Shown piece after piece: positions 1,124 to 54,397 of a DNA stretch of 64,000 nt (positions within the stretch are counted from its first letter, which is position 1; each line of letters starts with the position of its first letter). A program made the position numbers and the translations under genes. Location of the stretch: contig OMYB01000002.1 in assembly GCA_900315155.1 (NCBI GenBank), forward strand, positions 186,001-250,000. The letters are read 5' to 3'. Under the pieces are notes generated by a model. It made no database searches, was not told the DNA's origin, and worked only from the letters and a program-made list of their open reading frames with translations. The stretch comes from an uncultured Selenomonadales bacterium. Lineage in GTDB: Bacteria; Bacillota; Negativicutes; Selenomonadales; Selenomonadaceae.

Positions 1124-3106
1124 TCAGAAGCTGCCGCCTACCGTGAAGTGGACGCGGCCGCCCTGGTCGCCGCGGCCATAGTCGAGGCGCAGCGGACCGA
1201 CCGGCGTATTCAGCGAAAGGCCGACGCCGACGCTGCCGTGGATATTATCCGCATCCGGCGTCCAGCCATCATACCATGCACCGCCCCAATCCGTGAAGAG
1301 CGCGCCCTGCACCTTCGAGATGATCGGGAAACGGTACTCGAGCGTGGCGAGGCCCATGCGCGTGCCGCGGAACTGGTTGTCGCGGTAACCGCGGATGCTG
1401 TCCTGGCCGCCGAGACGGTACTCATCGTAGTACGAGACATGCCCATGCGCACCGCCGGCCTCGAGACGGGTCGCGACGACCTGGGCATGGCCAACCTTGA
1501 AGTAACGCTTATCCTCGATGTTAACCTTCTGGAAATCGAAATCTCCGCCGAAGCTTGCCACCTCGCCGGACAGGCTGATGCGGCCGCCCGTCGTCGGCTG
1601 ATAGACGTTGTCGCGCGTATCCGTGATGTGCTCCAGCGTAATGCTGCGCGTCAGACCGAAGTTGCGTTTACGCCAATCTGCATAGTGGTCGCCGCTACGA
1701 CCTCTATAATGCCAATACCCATCGGCATCTTGATAATCATCCTCATGGAATGTCGTGCTTTCATCTTCTTCATCGAAGTTGTCATACTTATCCTTGCGGT
1801 TGCGCAGCGTGACATAGTTCGTCGAATACTCGCTGACCGGACGACCCAGCGTGATCTCGCCGCCAGTATATTTGCGCATGAACTCCTCCAGGAGGTCGCC
1901 GTCGTCGTTGTAGTCGCTGTATTCATAGACGCGGTCGTAGATTTTCAGCGTACCGACCGTCTCTTTCGCGTCGATCCACGGATGACGCCACGAGAACGTA
2001 TAGCCGTGTGCATCGGAGTCATCACCGCTGACCTCGTAGCTGATGCTCACCGCATCGCCCGTGCCGCGGAAGTTCGAATCCGAGACGCTCAGCATGCCGA
2101 CGACGCCGTCCTCGCTCGAGTAGCCGGCGCCAATGCCGAACGAGCCCGTGCGTTTCTCCTTGACGTCGACTTCCATGACGACGGCATTCGGTGCGACGCC
2201 CGGATTCATCTTGATGTTGACATCCTCGAAGAAGCCGAGGTTATAGACGCGCTGCATGCTGCGGCGGGCCAGCTTCGAGTTGAACGGCTCGCCTTTCTTC
2301 TGGCGCATCTCGCGGAGGATGACGTAATTCTTCGTCTTCGTGTTGCCCTTGACCTTGAAGTCCTCGATCACGCCCTCGTTGATCTTGACCGTGAGGTTGC
2401 CCGCCTTGTCGATATTGAGGTCGGTGATCTTCGCGAGGATGTAGCCATCCTTGCGGTACTGGCTCTGGATCGCCTGTACGTTCTCATGCAGCGTGCGGCT
2501 GTTGAGGATCTGCCCCGGCTTCACCTCGATGAGTTTCATGAGATCATCCGTCTTCTCCACCGTATTGCCCGTGATGGCGACGCTCTTCAGCACCGGGTTC
2601 TCGAGTACGTGATACGTGAGCACGATGCCCTCGGGCACCTGCTCCGCCGTCGGATAGAGATCGTAGAAATAGCCCGTTGCGTAGATGGCCTCGCGGTCCT
2701 TGTTCATGCCGTTCGTCGTGAACATGTCACCCGTATGCATGGAAAGCGCTGCCTTGGCATCTTTGCTCGTGATATCCGTCGTACCATCGAAAACGGTATC
2801 GACGATGGTCTGCCCCTCGAACTGCTTCATGGCGTTCGTGACGACGTCCTCGGCCGGGCGCGATTTCACCCAATCCGCTGTGTGCTGATCCGTTTCCGAC
2901 TTGACGCCAGACTTTGCCTCGGCATCTTCTTTGACTTTCTCCGCCGATGCCTCGGCAATCGCGCTGGCCGACGTATCCCCGCTCACGGCAGCCGTGCTGG
3001 CTGGAGCCGCTTCCGGTTCTGCGGCGTACGTCATGCCCGGCAGGGCAGCAAAACTGGTGGCCAATGCCACAGCATAGGCCAGCGATCTGTATTTTCTGCT
3101 ATTCAA
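1124..3106 (-). CDS. bamA: BamA/Omp85 outer-membrane protein assembly factor
   Basis: Protein of 660 residues that folds and inserts beta-barrel proteins into the outer membrane. A signal peptide covers about residues 1-28 (ends GMTYA), followed by an Ala/Ser/Glu-rich linker to about 75. About three POTRA-like repeats span roughly 80-320, and a C-terminal beta-barrel ends in a terminal Phe (VGGSF). The loop-6 motif appears as SIRGYRDNQFRG, matching the VRGF/Y hallmark. It is shorter than the roughly 800-residue five-POTRA proteobacterial protein. The start is TTG at 3106 with AGGAGG eight bases upstream; no closer ATG has a ribosome site. It is the penultimate visible gene of the outer-membrane cluster and has its own promoter. 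Confidence 0.96.
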   Translation of the reverse strand: MNSRKYRSLAYAVALATSFAALPGMTYAAEPEAAPASTAAVSGDTSASAIAEASAEKVKEDAEAKSGVKSETDQHTADWVKSRPAEDVVTNAMKQFEGQTIVDTVFDGTTDITSKDAKAALSMHTGDMFTTNGMNKDREAIYATGYFYDLYPTAEQVPEGIVLTYHVLENPVLKSVAITGNTVEKTDDLMKLIEVKPGQILNSRTLHENVQAIQSQYRKDGYILAKITDLNIDKAGNLTVKINEGVIEDFKVKGNTKTKNYVILREMRQKKGEPFNSKLARRSMQRVYNLGFFEDVNIKMNPGVAPNAVVMEVDVKEKRTGSFGIGAGYSSEDGVVGMLSVSDSNFRGTGDAVSISYEVSGDDSDAHGYTFSWRHPWIDAKETVGTLKIYDRVYEYSDYNDDGDLLEEFMRKYTGGEITLGRPVSEYSTNYVTLRNRKDKYDNFDEEDESTTFHEDDYQDADGYWHYRGRSGDHYADWRKRNFGLTRSITLEHITDTRDNVYQPTTGGRISLSGEVASFGGDFDFQKVNIEDKRYFKVGHAQVVATRLEAGGAHGHVSYYDEYRLGGQDSIRGYRDNQFRGTRMGLATLEYRFPIISKVQGALFTDWGGAWYDGWTPDADNIHGSVGVGLSLNTPVGPLRLDYGRGDQGGRVHFTVGGSF

Positions 3107-3165
3107 GGAACAAACCTCCTAAACTTGTTTTCCTTTCTGCGTTGAAACAACTTCATGCTCATACT

Positions 3166-3194
3166 ATCTTATAGGGAATTCCTTCATCTTGCAA
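3166..3194 (-). promoter_or_regulatory. Promoter for bamA
   Basis: On the minus strand a TTGCAA -35 (3189-3194) and TAAGAT -10 (3166-3171) are separated by 17 bases, about 60 bases upstream of the TTG start of bamA. This would give bamA and the downstream exported gene transcription independent of the upstream cluster. Confidence 0.55.
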
Positions 3195-3243
3195 GTCCTG
3201 CCTGCCGGATAATCGGCAAATCCCTGGAAAAGCATAGAAAAGA

Positions 3244-3831
3244 TTACCGTGCCCGCAGGGCCTGTCCGGCCGTCTGCATGAGTTTCTGCTTCTGCGCATC
3301 CGGCACACGCGGCGAGGATGCGGATTCGGGAACAGGTATCTCCGCTGACGGTTTCTCCTGTACCATCTGGCGTTCAGCTGGTGGTTCCTGTGCCGGAGTG
3401 GCAGCAGGCACAGCCGCCTCAGCGGGAGCCGCCGGTGCGGCATCGGCAGCCGGTGCATCCGCAGCCGCCTGCTTCTGCGTTTGTGGAGCAGCAGGCGCGG
3501 CCGGCGGAAGTGGTTTCGGCATATCCGGCCGGTTTGCGCCGCCGGCATCCGCCGACGTGGCTGGCGTATCTGACATGTGGCTGATGCTTTGCCATCCGGC
3601 AAAGCCGGCCGCCGTGATGCAGACGGCCGCAGCGAGCGGTGCCATCCGGCGAAACCAGCGTTTCACGGCCTGCGTCTGCTCCCCTTCATGGACCTGGGAA
3701 AGCTCTGCCTTTGCCAGCATGACTTTGAGATCTCCGCGGATTTCATCGTCCTGGTCGAGCGAATGCTCCGCATCGCCCAGCCAATCCCGCGCCGCACGGA
3801 TATGATCCTTGGATTTTTGGTTGTCCTTCAT
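3244..3831 (-). CDS. Single-pass membrane protein with Pro/Ala-rich periplasmic tail; possible anti-sigma partner
   Basis: Protein of 195 residues without a family I recognise. Residues 1-65 are charged, helical and probably cytoplasmic. Residues about 66-85 form one membrane segment (MAPLAAAVCITAAGFAGW) preceded by KRWFRR, which fits an N-in orientation. The rest is Pro/Ala/Gln-rich and would lie in the periplasm. It sits directly downstream of a sigma-70 family gene and upstream of bamA. This topology and position resemble membrane anti-sigma factors, but no zinc-finger HxxxCxxC motif is present, so the role is inference. The Shine-Dalgarno sequence lies inside a long hairpin (3834-3883), so translation may be controlled. 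Confidence 0.8.
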   Translation of the reverse strand: MKDNQKSKDHIRAARDWLGDAEHSLDQDDEIRGDLKVMLAKAELSQVHEGEQTQAVKRWFRRMAPLAAAVCITAAGFAGWQSISHMSDTPATSADAGGANRPDMPKPLPPAAPAAPQTQKQAAADAPAADAAPAAPAEAAVPAATPAQEPPAERQMVQEKPSAEIPVPESASSPRVPDAQKQKLMQTAGQALRAR

Positions 3832-3833
3832 GC

Positions 3834-3883
3834 CATGCCCCTCCTTCCGAAGCTCATATTGCTATATTCGGAGGAGGGGCATG
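3834..3883 (-). promoter_or_regulatory. Long hairpin occluding a ribosome binding site
   Basis: Arms 3834-3851 and 3867-3883 are complementary over 17 base pairs with one bulged base and a 15-base loop. In the minus-strand transcript the start-proximal arm contains AAGGAGGGG, the only ribosome site for the gene starting at 3831. The opposite arm contains CCCCTCCTCC. The stem ends two bases before the ATG and is not followed by a U-tract, so it is not a terminator. It probably controls translation of the downstream membrane protein. Confidence 0.75.
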
Positions 3884-3926
3884 TTTCCTCACAGGGCGAT
3901 TTTCATCGTTATCCCCGTTTGTGTGC

Positions 3927-3955
3927 GATATATTCTTTTTTTCAGCCTCTTTCAA
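3927..3955 (-). promoter_or_regulatory. Promoter for the small membrane protein gene
   Basis: TTGAAA (3950-3955), a 17-base spacer and TATATC (3927-3932) on the minus strand lie between the sigma-factor stop and the downstream gene. A transcript starting near 3920 would carry an about 90-base leader containing the occluding hairpin. Confidence 0.45.
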
Positions 3956-3980
3956 AGCCATATAGCCTATTACCTAAGGA

Positions 3981-4625
3981 TTACTCCCAATAATGCATGA
4001 ATTTGGATAACATGCCTCGCACGCGGCGGATCCCCGTCTTTTGCAGGCGGTAAATATGCGCCGGCGTGACCTGCAGGTCGGCTGCGATATCCTTCGCGTC
4101 GGCACTTTGCAGATACATGCTCTCGAGCACCGTTTTCTCCTTGCCCGGCAGGCGATCCATGGCCTGATGCAGTTTATCGCAGAGCACATGATGCTCAGCC
4201 TGCTCGGCGACGGGCACTCCGGTATCGGGGATCTGGTCCTTCCAGGCGATTGCATGCTCATCCTCTCCCGGGCGCATCGCCTCGAGGCACGGCGCATCGA
4301 CGCTGCCTTCCTTGCGCAGGAAGTCGATCATGCGGCCGCGGATGCGGTGCACGGCAAAGAGACTGAAGGCTACGCCTCTCTGATGATCATAGCGCTCAAC
4401 GGCCTCGATGAGGCCGATGGTCCCTTCCTGCACGATATCCATGACACTCTGATACTGCCGGTATGGCAGCGCCTGCTTGAATACGAGAGGCTGATAGGAC
4501 TCGATGAGCCTGCGCCGTGCCGACGCATCCCCGTTTTCCTTGTACGCCTGCCAAAGAGCCCGCTCCTCCGCAGGTTCGAGGACCTGCACATGCGAGAGTT
4601 CCGCCATATACTGCTCAAAGCGCAT
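3981..4625 (-). CDS. Sigma-70 family RNA polymerase sigma factor (SigB/FliA-like group)
   Basis: Protein of 214 residues that would direct RNA polymerase to a special promoter set. Region 2 is visible around residues 45-110, with the core-binding and -10 recognition signature DIVQEGTIGLIEAVERYD and FSLFAVHRIRGRMIDFLR. Region 4 is around 155-210 (RLPGKEKTVLESMYL, then a helix-turn-helix DIAADLQVTPAHIYRLQK). There is no region 1.1, so it is an alternative factor and not the housekeeping one. The start has GGAGG upstream at good spacing. It lies 26 bases downstream of tamB and upstream of a membrane protein and bamA, which suggests a role in envelope gene control. The target regulon cannot be read from this window. 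Confidence 0.9.
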   Translation of the reverse strand: MRFEQYMAELSHVQVLEPAEERALWQAYKENGDASARRRLIESYQPLVFKQALPYRQYQSVMDIVQEGTIGLIEAVERYDHQRGVAFSLFAVHRIRGRMIDFLRKEGSVDAPCLEAMRPGEDEHAIAWKDQIPDTGVPVAEQAEHHVLCDKLHQAMDRLPGKEKTVLESMYLQSADAKDIAADLQVTPAHIYRLQKTGIRRVRGMLSKFMHYWE

Positions 4626-4651
4626 CCTACCGCCTCCTTTCTATCCCTTTC

Positions 4652-7600
4652 TCAGAATTTGAACTGCATGAGGCCGCCGACGAAGCCCGAGCCATCCTCA
4701 TTGCCCACGATGAAACCATAGTGGTCATTCATATCATACTGCAGGCCGACGCGGTTCATTTCCTTTCCGCCGCCAAAATCGCGCGTGTACTTGATCATGA
4801 CCTTGTCGCTGATATACTTGCCCATCTCGACGTTATAGACATCTTCGTCCTCATTCGAGGATTCGCGGTCGTGCGAGTCGAGGATGGCGCCGCTGCCGCG
4901 TGCCAGGGTAAAGTCATCGAGCCAGAGCATCTTCCGCATGACATCCTCGACCTCCGAGAGCACGCTCATCTGCAGGCCGACATTGAGGATGTCCATCGCA
5001 TTCATCTGCTTGCCCGCTTTATAGGCATTGCGCAGCGTGAGGAGCTGGATAATCTCCGTCTGGCTCATCTCCGGGCTGGATGTCAGCGAAATGTTCATCG
5101 CATCCAATGGCCCATCGAGGTTCAGATAGACGCGCGCCTGCGTGAGCCGCGTGGCCGCATGGAACGTGATACTCGGCAGGAACGAATCGACCTGATTGAA
5201 ATAGGCCGCGCCTTCCGTGATGTTGAACACCGTCTTGAGGTAGTTCACCTTGCCGCCGCGCTTGACCGACAGCGACCCGGACGTCTTCGGATGACGGGTG
5301 GTGCCGCCGAAATGAACCTGTCCCGTGAGATACATATCGTAGAGCGCGGAACTGTAGAAATGGACCTTATCGCGGACATTGACCTGTACATCAAGCAGGA
5401 TGTGCGGCAGCTCACCATCCGAATCCGGGATGGCCGGAACGGAAACCATACAATCGTGGAAATCGATCTGGCCGGAAACCTTCGGCATCTTATGCCCGAA
5501 GACCTCGCCTTCTCCGATATGCACTTCCCCATTCAGAGGCCCGCGGAAGAAATCACTCTGGATATCGAGCTTATCCGTCTTGACATCCAGGCTGTAATTC
5601 TTTAGAGCCAGTCCATCCAGCTCGGCATGGCCGCTGCCCTGAAGGGAACCATCGCCCATTTTAGCAGAGAACTCTTTCAGGTCCATTGCCGTGCCATTAA
5701 AATCGGCTTCCACACGCAAATTTGTAAAAGGCTTCTCGAGCAGCTTGAGTTTCACGCCGCCATCCGGAACGAGAATCTGTCCTTTGATCTGCGGATTCGC
5801 CGCCGTGCCGGTGATTGTGAGATTGCCCTTCGTCGCACCGACCGCCCAGTCCACCTGATTCGAGAGCATCGGCAGCAGGGAAAGGTCCGCGTTATCGAGG
5901 GAGATGTTGAGCATAATCTGCTCGATGTTATTCGCCTGAGACGGGTCTTTGACCTGCAGGGCACTCAGCGGAACCACGCCGCCTGCCGTGAGCTGATAGG
6001 ACTTTCCGTTCAGTTCTTTCTGCACATTCAGCGAATCGATATCGATCTGGCCATTCTTCAGATGCAGCACGCTCGTCAGCGTATCGAACGTCGCGCCGCG
6101 CACGCCGCCATCCTTGCCGCGGATCGTTGCATCAATCGTGGGGTTATGGACATAACCGCCCAGCGCTGCCTCGATATCCGCCGTTCCGACGACCTCCGTC
6201 GTCACGCCTCCCAATCCCGTGAACATGCCGAGGGCGATGTCCTGAGCCGAGAGATTGCCCTCGAGAGGACCGTCGAGCGAGCCGCTGCCCTTGAAGGAAA
6301 GGCGACCTTTGTCACCCTGCTTTGCCTCGAGCTGATCCACATAGAGGGTTCGATCCAGCAGGTGGAGCTGAAGTGTGACATCGTGCACATCGTAGCCGGC
6401 AACCGTGCCCTTTTCCATGCTGCCGTGCAGGATAGCATAGGGATTATCCAGGGTGCCGCTGACATCGATACCGCTCGTGAGGCGCCCCTGGACCTTATCG
6501 TTGCGGAAATTGCAGATGGCCGCAACGGCATTGACATCGGCATTCTGCACAACAGCCGTGCCCTTGATACTGCGCGTCGCCTGATTGGCCGAGAACTCCA
6601 TGTCATAGGTTCCCTCATTCTGCACAAAGCCGAAGTTGCGCACGGCGAATTCATCATTCATATACTCCACGAAGCCGTGGACCTGCTGGACCTCCTGCCC
6701 GTTGAGGACGAGAGAAGGCGCATCGAGCACGCCGTGAAACCGCGGGGCATCGATCGTGCCATCGAGCAGGCCATCGAACGTGCCATGACCGCTGACCGGA
6801 TAGGGCATCTTTGCCTGCACGCGGCTCATATCGAGATCCGCTGCCTTGACGTGCATGTCCAGCTGTTTCTCCTTGTTGAGCGTGCCATTAAGCACCGCAT
6901 CCACCATCGGGCTGAACAGATGGAAATCCTGCAGGCGCATGACGCCATCATCGATGAAGTAATCGCCATCCATACCGGAGAGCAGGACGCCGGCATAGCT
7001 GCCGCGGTAGAAATGGACATAGCCGACGGCCTTCGGGTTGTCGAGTGTGCCCGTGAACTGGATGACGTTATCGACATTACCGGTGAGCGGCTGATCCGGC
7101 GCAACGAGAGCCATGATGTCCTCCATGCGCGCGCCCTTCGTGTCGATACGCATATCGATTTTCCGCTCGCCCGTGAGACCGACCGTGCCCTGTACGAACC
7201 AGGTCTGCTGGCCGTCTTTCTCGAGCAGGAAGTCGTCGACATGGACCTCGTCGAGGCTGCCGCCCGCCGTGATCTTCAGCGAGTCATACGGCTGCTTGAA
7301 GAATTTGCCGTGCGAAGCGGAGAACTTGAACTCGACCTGCGGATTGGCGATATTGCCCTGGACCGTGCCCTCAAAATCCCCGATGCCCGTGATGTCGGCA
7401 TCCGGCACGAGAGTCTGGAGGAGCGACAGGTCCGTATGCCCCGCATAGAGCGCCAGGTCGAGATCCTGTCCTTCTTTTACCGTACCCTCGAGGCCCAGAC
7501 TGGTGCGGTTTGGCAGCGTGGCCGAGAGGTAGTCGATCGTGACATCGCGTCCCGCGACATCGAAAGATGTCGAGAGATCCTCTATGGGCAGCCCCTGATA

Positions 7601-44121: not shown

Positions 44122-44170
44122 AATGACCCCGCACCAACCGTGAGTAGATTGGTGCGGGGTCATTTTTTGT
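44122..44170. terminator. Strong hairpin terminator between dut and ttdB
   Basis: A perfect 16-bp stem, AATGACCCCGCACCAA (44122-44137) with TTGGTGCGGGGTCATT (44149-44164), 11-base loop, T-run on the plus side. It is best in plus orientation but also lies 8 bases after the ttdB stop on the minus strand. Confidence 0.85.
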
Positions 44171-53107: not shown

Positions 53108-54232
53108 TTACTTCAGTTTCACCAGTTCGTACGCACGCGTACCCATGCCGATCTTTTCGGCGTGCTCGAGGGTTTCCTTCCAATGAATGTTCGGATTGGA
53201 ATCCAGAAAATGGTCGTGATGCACGTGCCAATCCGGTTTCGCGAGGTTGTCGCTGAGCTGGCTGTTCGGCATCGGCGGAGCCTGCAGGCAGAGGTCAGCG
53301 CTGGCCTGGTCGAGGGCGACGGGATCGAACGAGGCGGCCATACCGATGTCCGGCAGGATGGCGGCGTCATTCTCACCATGGCAGTCGCAGTTCGGCGAGA
53401 TATCGCGCAGGATGTTGATGTGGAAGCACGGACGGCCATCGACGACAGCCTGTGCGTACTCCGCCATCTTGCGGTCGAGAAGCTCGCCGGCATCCCACTG
53501 CTCGTTGTAGATGGCATCGAATCCGCAAGCACCGATGCAACGGCCGCAGCCTTTGCAGAGATCCTCATGGATATGCGCCTTGTTGTTCTCGTAGGTGATG
53601 GCGTTCGAGCCGCACTCCTTTGCACACTTACGGCAGCCTTTACAAAGTTCCTCGTTGACTTTGCACTTGCCCGAGGAATGCTGTTCCATCTTGCCGGCGC
53701 GGCTGCCGCAGCCCATGCCGATGTTCTTGATGGCACCGCCGAACCCCGTCGCCTCATGCCCTTTGAAATTAGCAAGGCTGATAAGGACATCCGCATCCAT
53801 GATGGCGCGGCCGATCTTGGCGCTCTTGACATACTCACCATTGCGCACAGGCACTTCCACATCATCTGTGCCTTTCAGGCCATCGCCGATGATAATCTGG
53901 CAGCCCGTGGAGATGGGGTTGAACCCATTGAGGTTTGCGCAGTCCAGATGCTCAAGTGCATGCTTGCGGCTGCCCGGATAGAGTGTGTTGCAATCCGTGA
54001 GGAAAGGACGGCCACCCTGCTCCTTCGCGAGGTCTGCGATGCACTTCGCATACTGCGGGCGCAGATACGCGAGATTGCCAAGCTCACCAAAATGCATCTT
54101 GATGGCAACAAACTTATTCTCCATATCGATATCCTTGAACCCGGCCGCGAGGCAGAGACGGCGCAGCTTGTCCGTGATGCTCGTGCCAACTGGGCAGCGG
54201 AAATCCGTGAAATAAACTTTGGCTTTGCTCAT
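53108..54232 (-). CDS. DUF362 4Fe-4S ferredoxin-type protein
   Basis: Protein of 374 residues. A DUF362 domain covers most of the length (ENKFVAIKMHFGELGNLAYL, DADVLISLANFKGHEATGFG, GGAIKNIGMGCGSRAGK), with two inserted 4Fe-4S ferredoxin motifs (CKGCRKCAKEC and CKGCGRCIGAC, about residues 197-245). No signal peptide, so cytoplasmic. The family is common in anaerobes and its reaction is not known. Monocistronic and convergent with the exporter gene. Confidence 0.9.
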   Translation of the reverse strand: MSKAKVYFTDFRCPVGTSITDKLRRLCLAAGFKDIDMENKFVAIKMHFGELGNLAYLRPQYAKCIADLAKEQGGRPFLTDCNTLYPGSRKHALEHLDCANLNGFNPISTGCQIIIGDGLKGTDDVEVPVRNGEYVKSAKIGRAIMDADVLISLANFKGHEATGFGGAIKNIGMGCGSRAGKMEQHSSGKCKVNEELCKGCRKCAKECGSNAITYENNKAHIHEDLCKGCGRCIGACGFDAIYNEQWDAGELLDRKMAEYAQAVVDGRPCFHINILRDISPNCDCHGENDAAILPDIGMAASFDPVALDQASADLCLQAPPMPNSQLSDNLAKPDWHVHHDHFLDSNPNIHWKETLEHAEKIGMGTRAYELVKLK

Positions 54233-54397
54233 GAAGAAACTCCTCCTATTTTCCTGTTACACAATTCTATATTACCATAGAAACAAGCATATAGAAAATA
54301 GAATTTTCATATAAAGTCAACAGAAAGAATCCTGCTTTCCACCAACAACAAGAAAATGGTATAATATTATCAAAGCAGATGAAAGGAGTGTTTAACG

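Follow-up and report, generated by a model that had tools for sequence, protein, structure and literature searches.

In phage T4, the Shine-Dalgarno (SD) sequences of gene e and I-TevI are locked by a hairpin in a long RNA, and a short RNA that starts from a promoter within or beside the 5′ strand of that hairpin leaves them free (PMC3014915, PMC2988022). Read-through hairpins of the same type occur at I-TevII, I-TevIII and segB and at mobE in phage Aeh1 (PMC3014915, PMC2988022), and for T4 lysozyme synthesis the effect of the hairpin is approximately 100-fold (PMC3014915). By analogy, the hairpin preceding a small membrane protein gene, here termed gene X, on a Selenomonadaceae chromosome appears to resemble this established architecture: the SD of gene X is predicted to be locked on a long RNA, a conserved promoter-like element is placed so that its RNA would lack the 5′ strand, and a gene on the same strand lies upstream of X with no intrinsic terminator between the two. 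Unlike the T4 examples, gene X is a gene of a chromosomal bacterial operon and not a phage late gene, and it is known here from sequence and predicted folding.

Partial parallels exist outside phages. In IS10 and similar insertion sequences, a terminal inverted repeat sequesters the ribosome site of the transposase in RNA entering from outside. The hairpin of gene X would likewise be confined in its action to transcripts of an external promoter, but the IS10 hairpin protects a mobile element, whereas the gene X locus contains neither a transposase nor a repeat copy. Type I toxin mRNAs, such as aapA1 of Helicobacter pylori, are translationally inactive at full length and become active when shortened by processing. 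The pairing of a long inactive RNA with a shortened active one is common to aapA1 and the arrangement proposed here; the aapA1 RNA is shortened by processing, whereas for gene X we propose a second promoter.

Within the window (the whole stretch of 64,000 nucleotides that was analysed), gene X lies between a sigma factor gene and bamA, as a preliminary description of this DNA had stated, and the order on the minus strand is tamB, sigma factor, gene X, bamA:

9019-4652, minus strand: tamB, upstream of the sigma factor gene
4625-3981, minus strand: gene for a sigma-70-family sigma factor, upstream of gene X and the assumed source of read-through RNA
3831-3244, minus strand: gene X, encoding a small inner-membrane protein of 195 amino acids that belongs to no known family
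3106-1124, minus strand: bamA (Omp85 with POTRA domains), downstream of gene X

The stop codon of the sigma factor gene lies 149 nt before the start of X, and a search of the window found no intrinsic terminator between these two genes. In Veillonella, tamB and bamA bear the consecutive locus numbers Vpar_0526 and Vpar_0527 (PMC5491611). Homologues of X are encoded in 123 of 189 Selenomonadaceae genomes and also in other families of the class. The protein consists of a conserved N-terminal helix (invariant residues A13, A14, W17, L18, A21, L35, L39, A40, A42 and E43), one membrane helix, a linker rich in Pro and Ala, and a C-terminal helix conserved as MQKLMQxAGKxLR, and its structure model contains helices only. 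Comparison with Pfam returned no family and comparison with PDB folds no match; against NCBIfam there were only two matches, both far below the cut-off and probably due to composition. Because a membrane protein adjoining a sigma factor suggests such a role, protein X is possibly the anti-sigma factor of its neighbour.

The sequence preceding gene X forms, as previously noted, a hairpin of 17 pairs with one bulged base (3883-3834, minus strand) that fully encloses the sole SD of the gene:

3883-3867, minus strand: 5′ arm of the hairpin, CATGCCCCTCCTCCGAA, from sequence and fold
3851-3834, minus strand: 3′ arm of the hairpin, TTCGGAAGGAGGGGCATG, containing the SD, from sequence and fold
3846-3840, minus strand: SD AAGGAGG, within the 3′ arm, 8 nt 5′ of the gene X ATG at 3831
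3882-3862, minus strand: tiny open reading frame MPLLRI* across the 5′ arm, with its start codon within the stem; probably incidental

The 141-nt hairpin region folds at -45.5 kcal/mol (z -5.4), and none of 200 dinucleotide shuffles was as stable. In any RNA that carries both arms the SD is predicted to be sequestered. The computed cost of freeing it, 23.4 kcal/mol, ranks first among 37 gene starts scored in the window, where the next-highest value is 11.8 and the median 5.9 kcal/mol; none of 109 homologous starts equals it (median 6.7, maximum 17.8 kcal/mol). Several familiar classes of element were considered and rejected. The stem is not an intrinsic terminator: no U-run lies 3′ of it, in agreement with the preliminary description, and it is absent from the terminator scan. 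Nor is it a dispersed palindromic repeat, as both the 141-nt region and, with up to 3 mismatches allowed, the hairpin arm have a single match genome-wide. Comparison with Rfam gave no match to a riboswitch or other curated RNA family up to E=1 within 3000-5000. Translational coupling from the sigma factor gene was likewise rejected, the stop codon at 3981 being approximately 98 nt 5′ of the stem and too distant for a terminating ribosome. Heat, one of the openers that had been suggested, is excluded by energy: opening energies computed from 20 to 70 °C rule out an RNA thermometer, the SD costing 25.4 kcal/mol at 30 °C, 21.7 at 42 °C and still 14.2 at 70 °C.

An unsupervised search of the region before X, gathered from 110 loci, found a 10-base motif, TGGANTATA, and anchoring the sequences on it revealed a second conserved part approximately 15-30 bases upstream. 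The resulting two-part element, AWWTnnCnnGYnArAA followed after approximately 15 nt by TGGANTATA, is found upstream of gene X family-wide (window 3852-3907, minus strand; homologous sites L006-L129). Searches with motifs 16 and 20 bases wide yielded other AT-rich and coding patterns; a positioned element was obtained only by anchoring on the 10-base motif. In the window, the element extends into the 5′ arm and loop of the hairpin:

3904-3886, minus strand: upstream part of the conserved element, here AAAATCGCCCTGTGAGGAA (family consensus AWWTnnCnnGYnArAA), located by profile
3906-3889, minus strand: tiny open reading frame MKIAL, seen in the sequence, overlapping the conserved DNA element
3871-3862, minus strand: -10-like part, CCGAATATAG (family consensus TGGANTATA), running from the tip of the 5′ arm into the loop; a putative -10
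3857-3853, minus strand: transcription start expected from the -10-like motif, within the hairpin

A profile of the element was built from 46 non-redundant relatives, leaving out the genus of the window and a genus with TTGAAT/TATAAT promoters. Among 127,890 positions, its best site in the window is that at 3871 on the minus strand, which scores 21.5 versus 14.0 for the next; this site lay outside the training set but belonged to the loci that had first yielded the core motif. With the profile retrained on random halves of the relatives, the 3871 site ranked first in 48 of 50 trials. The training sequences were picked by their 10-base core score, so that conservation of the core is partly selected. 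The second-best site, at 54276-54320 (minus strand), lies 44 nt 5′ of a gene for 374 amino acids that starts at 54232 and is probably an ordinary promoter. Across loci the distance from element to ATG varies from 30 to 66 nt, which fits a promoter and not an element of the ribosome site, and in one genus a canonical TTGAAT-18-TATAAT stands 17-66 nt 5′ of X in all 13 loci. The motif of the window is imperfect (CCGAATATAG versus TGGANTATA) and its -35 part is weak. We infer from these features that the conserved element is the promoter of gene X; the adjacent sigma factor may read the element in an autoregulatory loop.

The position of this candidate promoter bears directly on the hairpin, since an RNA polymerase that starts there should produce a gene X mRNA that begins past the 5′ arm and needs no opening. 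Computed SD accessibility depends steeply on the 5′ end of the RNA. For nearly all tested ends between 3854 and 3871 opening costs 5.7-6.4 kcal/mol (4.2 for 3851); it then rises to 11.5 at 3874, 17.3 at 3877 and 20.7 kcal/mol at 3881, and reaches 23-25 kcal/mol for ends at 3886 or further upstream. An RNA begun near 3855 has the 3′ arm only, and its SD therefore opens at approximately 6 kcal/mol. The hairpin should thus probably lock only the read-through mRNA from the sigma factor gene. The mechanism that we propose, and judge a little better than evenly balanced, is that gene X has its own promoter within the DNA that encodes the hairpin and that the hairpin silences X on read-through RNA only. 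RNA polymerase starting at the inner promoter would make a short mRNA whose leader of approximately 23 nt contains the SD and lacks the 5′ arm, and this mRNA would be freely translated. RNA running in from the sigma factor gene, and perhaps from tamB, would carry both arms and form the 17-bp stem, hiding the SD, and no X would be made from it. The level of X would then be set by the gene's own promoter, shielded from transcription of the sigma factor operon, and the hairpin may have been selected for this effect.

The locus had been described initially as a dedicated leader that is transcribed from a promoter 40 bases upstream and requires an opening event, plausibly as a stress switch. In that account, transcription starts near 3920 and the hairpin belongs to the normal leader of X, to be opened by a protein, a small RNA or another signal. 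A promoter-like sequence is indeed present there, with a 9/12 match to the consensus (TTGAAA at 3955-3950, 17 nt, TATATC at 3932-3927), and the sole SD is blocked by the hairpin; the 3955-3927 sequence, however, is outside the list of the promoter scan and unconserved in three congeners, whereas the promoter-like element inside the hairpin DNA is conserved across the family and overlaps the 5′ arm and loop. The high opening cost at 42 °C, the lack of an Rfam family and the lack of a conserved leader structure in congeners also count against a regulated leader, which we regard as improbable, and the need for an opening event was probably wrongly assigned. Scarcely credible is a variant in which ribosomes on the MKIAL or MPLLRI reading frame unfold the stem and so bring about coupled translation of X. 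Both reading frames exist, and the latter runs across the 5′ arm, but its start codon is buried in the stem, and the MKIAL frame overlaps the conserved DNA element, whose conservation explains the sequence without translation. The dyad could also act as DNA, as an operator bound by a dimeric repressor or activator overlapping the promoter, and it does overlap the -10-like motif and the expected start; yet relatives retain the asymmetric element and not the dyad, and the arm sequence is single-copy in the genome, which makes this very improbable.

The strongest alternative is that the palindrome is neutral, a mutational by-product in free spacer with no regulatory role, formed for example by a template switch that copied the SD region into the promoter spacer; the mRNA from X's own promoter would be unaffected and read-through RNA would be rare or irrelevant. 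We consider it unlikely, though less so than the other alternatives, and comparison with relatives speaks on both sides. The 17-bp stem is present only in the window species and absent from its three sequenced congeners, which are distant from it (sigma factor identity 60-74%). Absence of the hairpin from close relatives, named beforehand as an outcome that would count against a regulatory hairpin, is thus largely what is seen at this distance: two congeners (L003 and L005) have no SD hairpin of note, and the third (L004) forms a much weaker hairpin, ACCTCC/GGAGGT, at the corresponding position. Most of the 5′ arm falls within promoter spacer that is not conserved, where a palindrome would carry no cost; the remainder of the arm is the beginning of the -10-like motif. 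Compensatory changes, the other comparison that had been suggested, gave no help to the hairpin: RNAalifold on one related genus group found no supported consensus helix at the SD. Partner swapping between spacers and SDs across the family revealed no pair-specific coevolution either, the own pair being better in 27 of 61 cases (Wilcoxon p 0.6) in what is a weak test, as the SDs are all alike. With the swap test negative and no consensus structure within the genus, selection for pairing is not proven.

Against a neutral origin, sequestration of the SD is in excess at gene X. Judged against dinucleotide-preserving shuffles of the upstream stretch, sequestration in read-through RNA was significant (p<=0.04) at 19 of 87 non-redundant X starts, the window's excluded, where approximately 3.5 were expected. 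At the same loci the excess is weaker at the sigma factor gene (4 of 40 starts) and absent at bamA (1 of 44). The partner strand also recurs in the same place, which suggests more than accident. Including the window, a clear motif accompanies 16 of the 20 significant X starts, and for 15 of those 16 the strand that pairs with the SD lies upstream of the expected transcription start (wholly in 14 and mostly in 1); the 75% identity filter removes relatedness only partly, and short-range pairing favours this position in any case.

Relatives may also insulate X by other means. In 11 of 102 loci (L003, L009, L016, L025, L065, L070, L091, L100, L110, L116 and L121), against a rate of 0.4% in shuffled sequence, an intrinsic terminator separates the sigma factor gene from X and could represent such an alternative. 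The two genes are directly adjacent in 8 of 110 loci, so insulation of X is not universal; the window locus has neither a terminator between the genes nor direct adjacency. A broader reading would have X kept silent on read-through RNA throughout the Selenomonadaceae by hairpins that change in sequence and retain their promoter-overlapping position. A terminator would replace the hairpin in some relatives, and an isoform switch of the T4 type would serve as standing insulation. We regard this family-wide extension as doubtful.

Should the proposed mechanism hold at the window locus, the mRNA isoform, and not an opening signal, would decide translation of the envelope protein X, and the message of the sigma factor would bear a silent copy of gene X. 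A timing device of phages would then be present at a conserved chromosomal locus for outer-membrane biogenesis. Such an arrangement would also mislead automatic searches for RNA switches, in which a strong SD hairpin with a promoter inside it would be taken for a leader structure that it is not. Elsewhere in the window, at 44122-44164, lies a perfect inverted repeat, AATGACCCCGCACCAA, of 16 bp around a loop of 11 nt.
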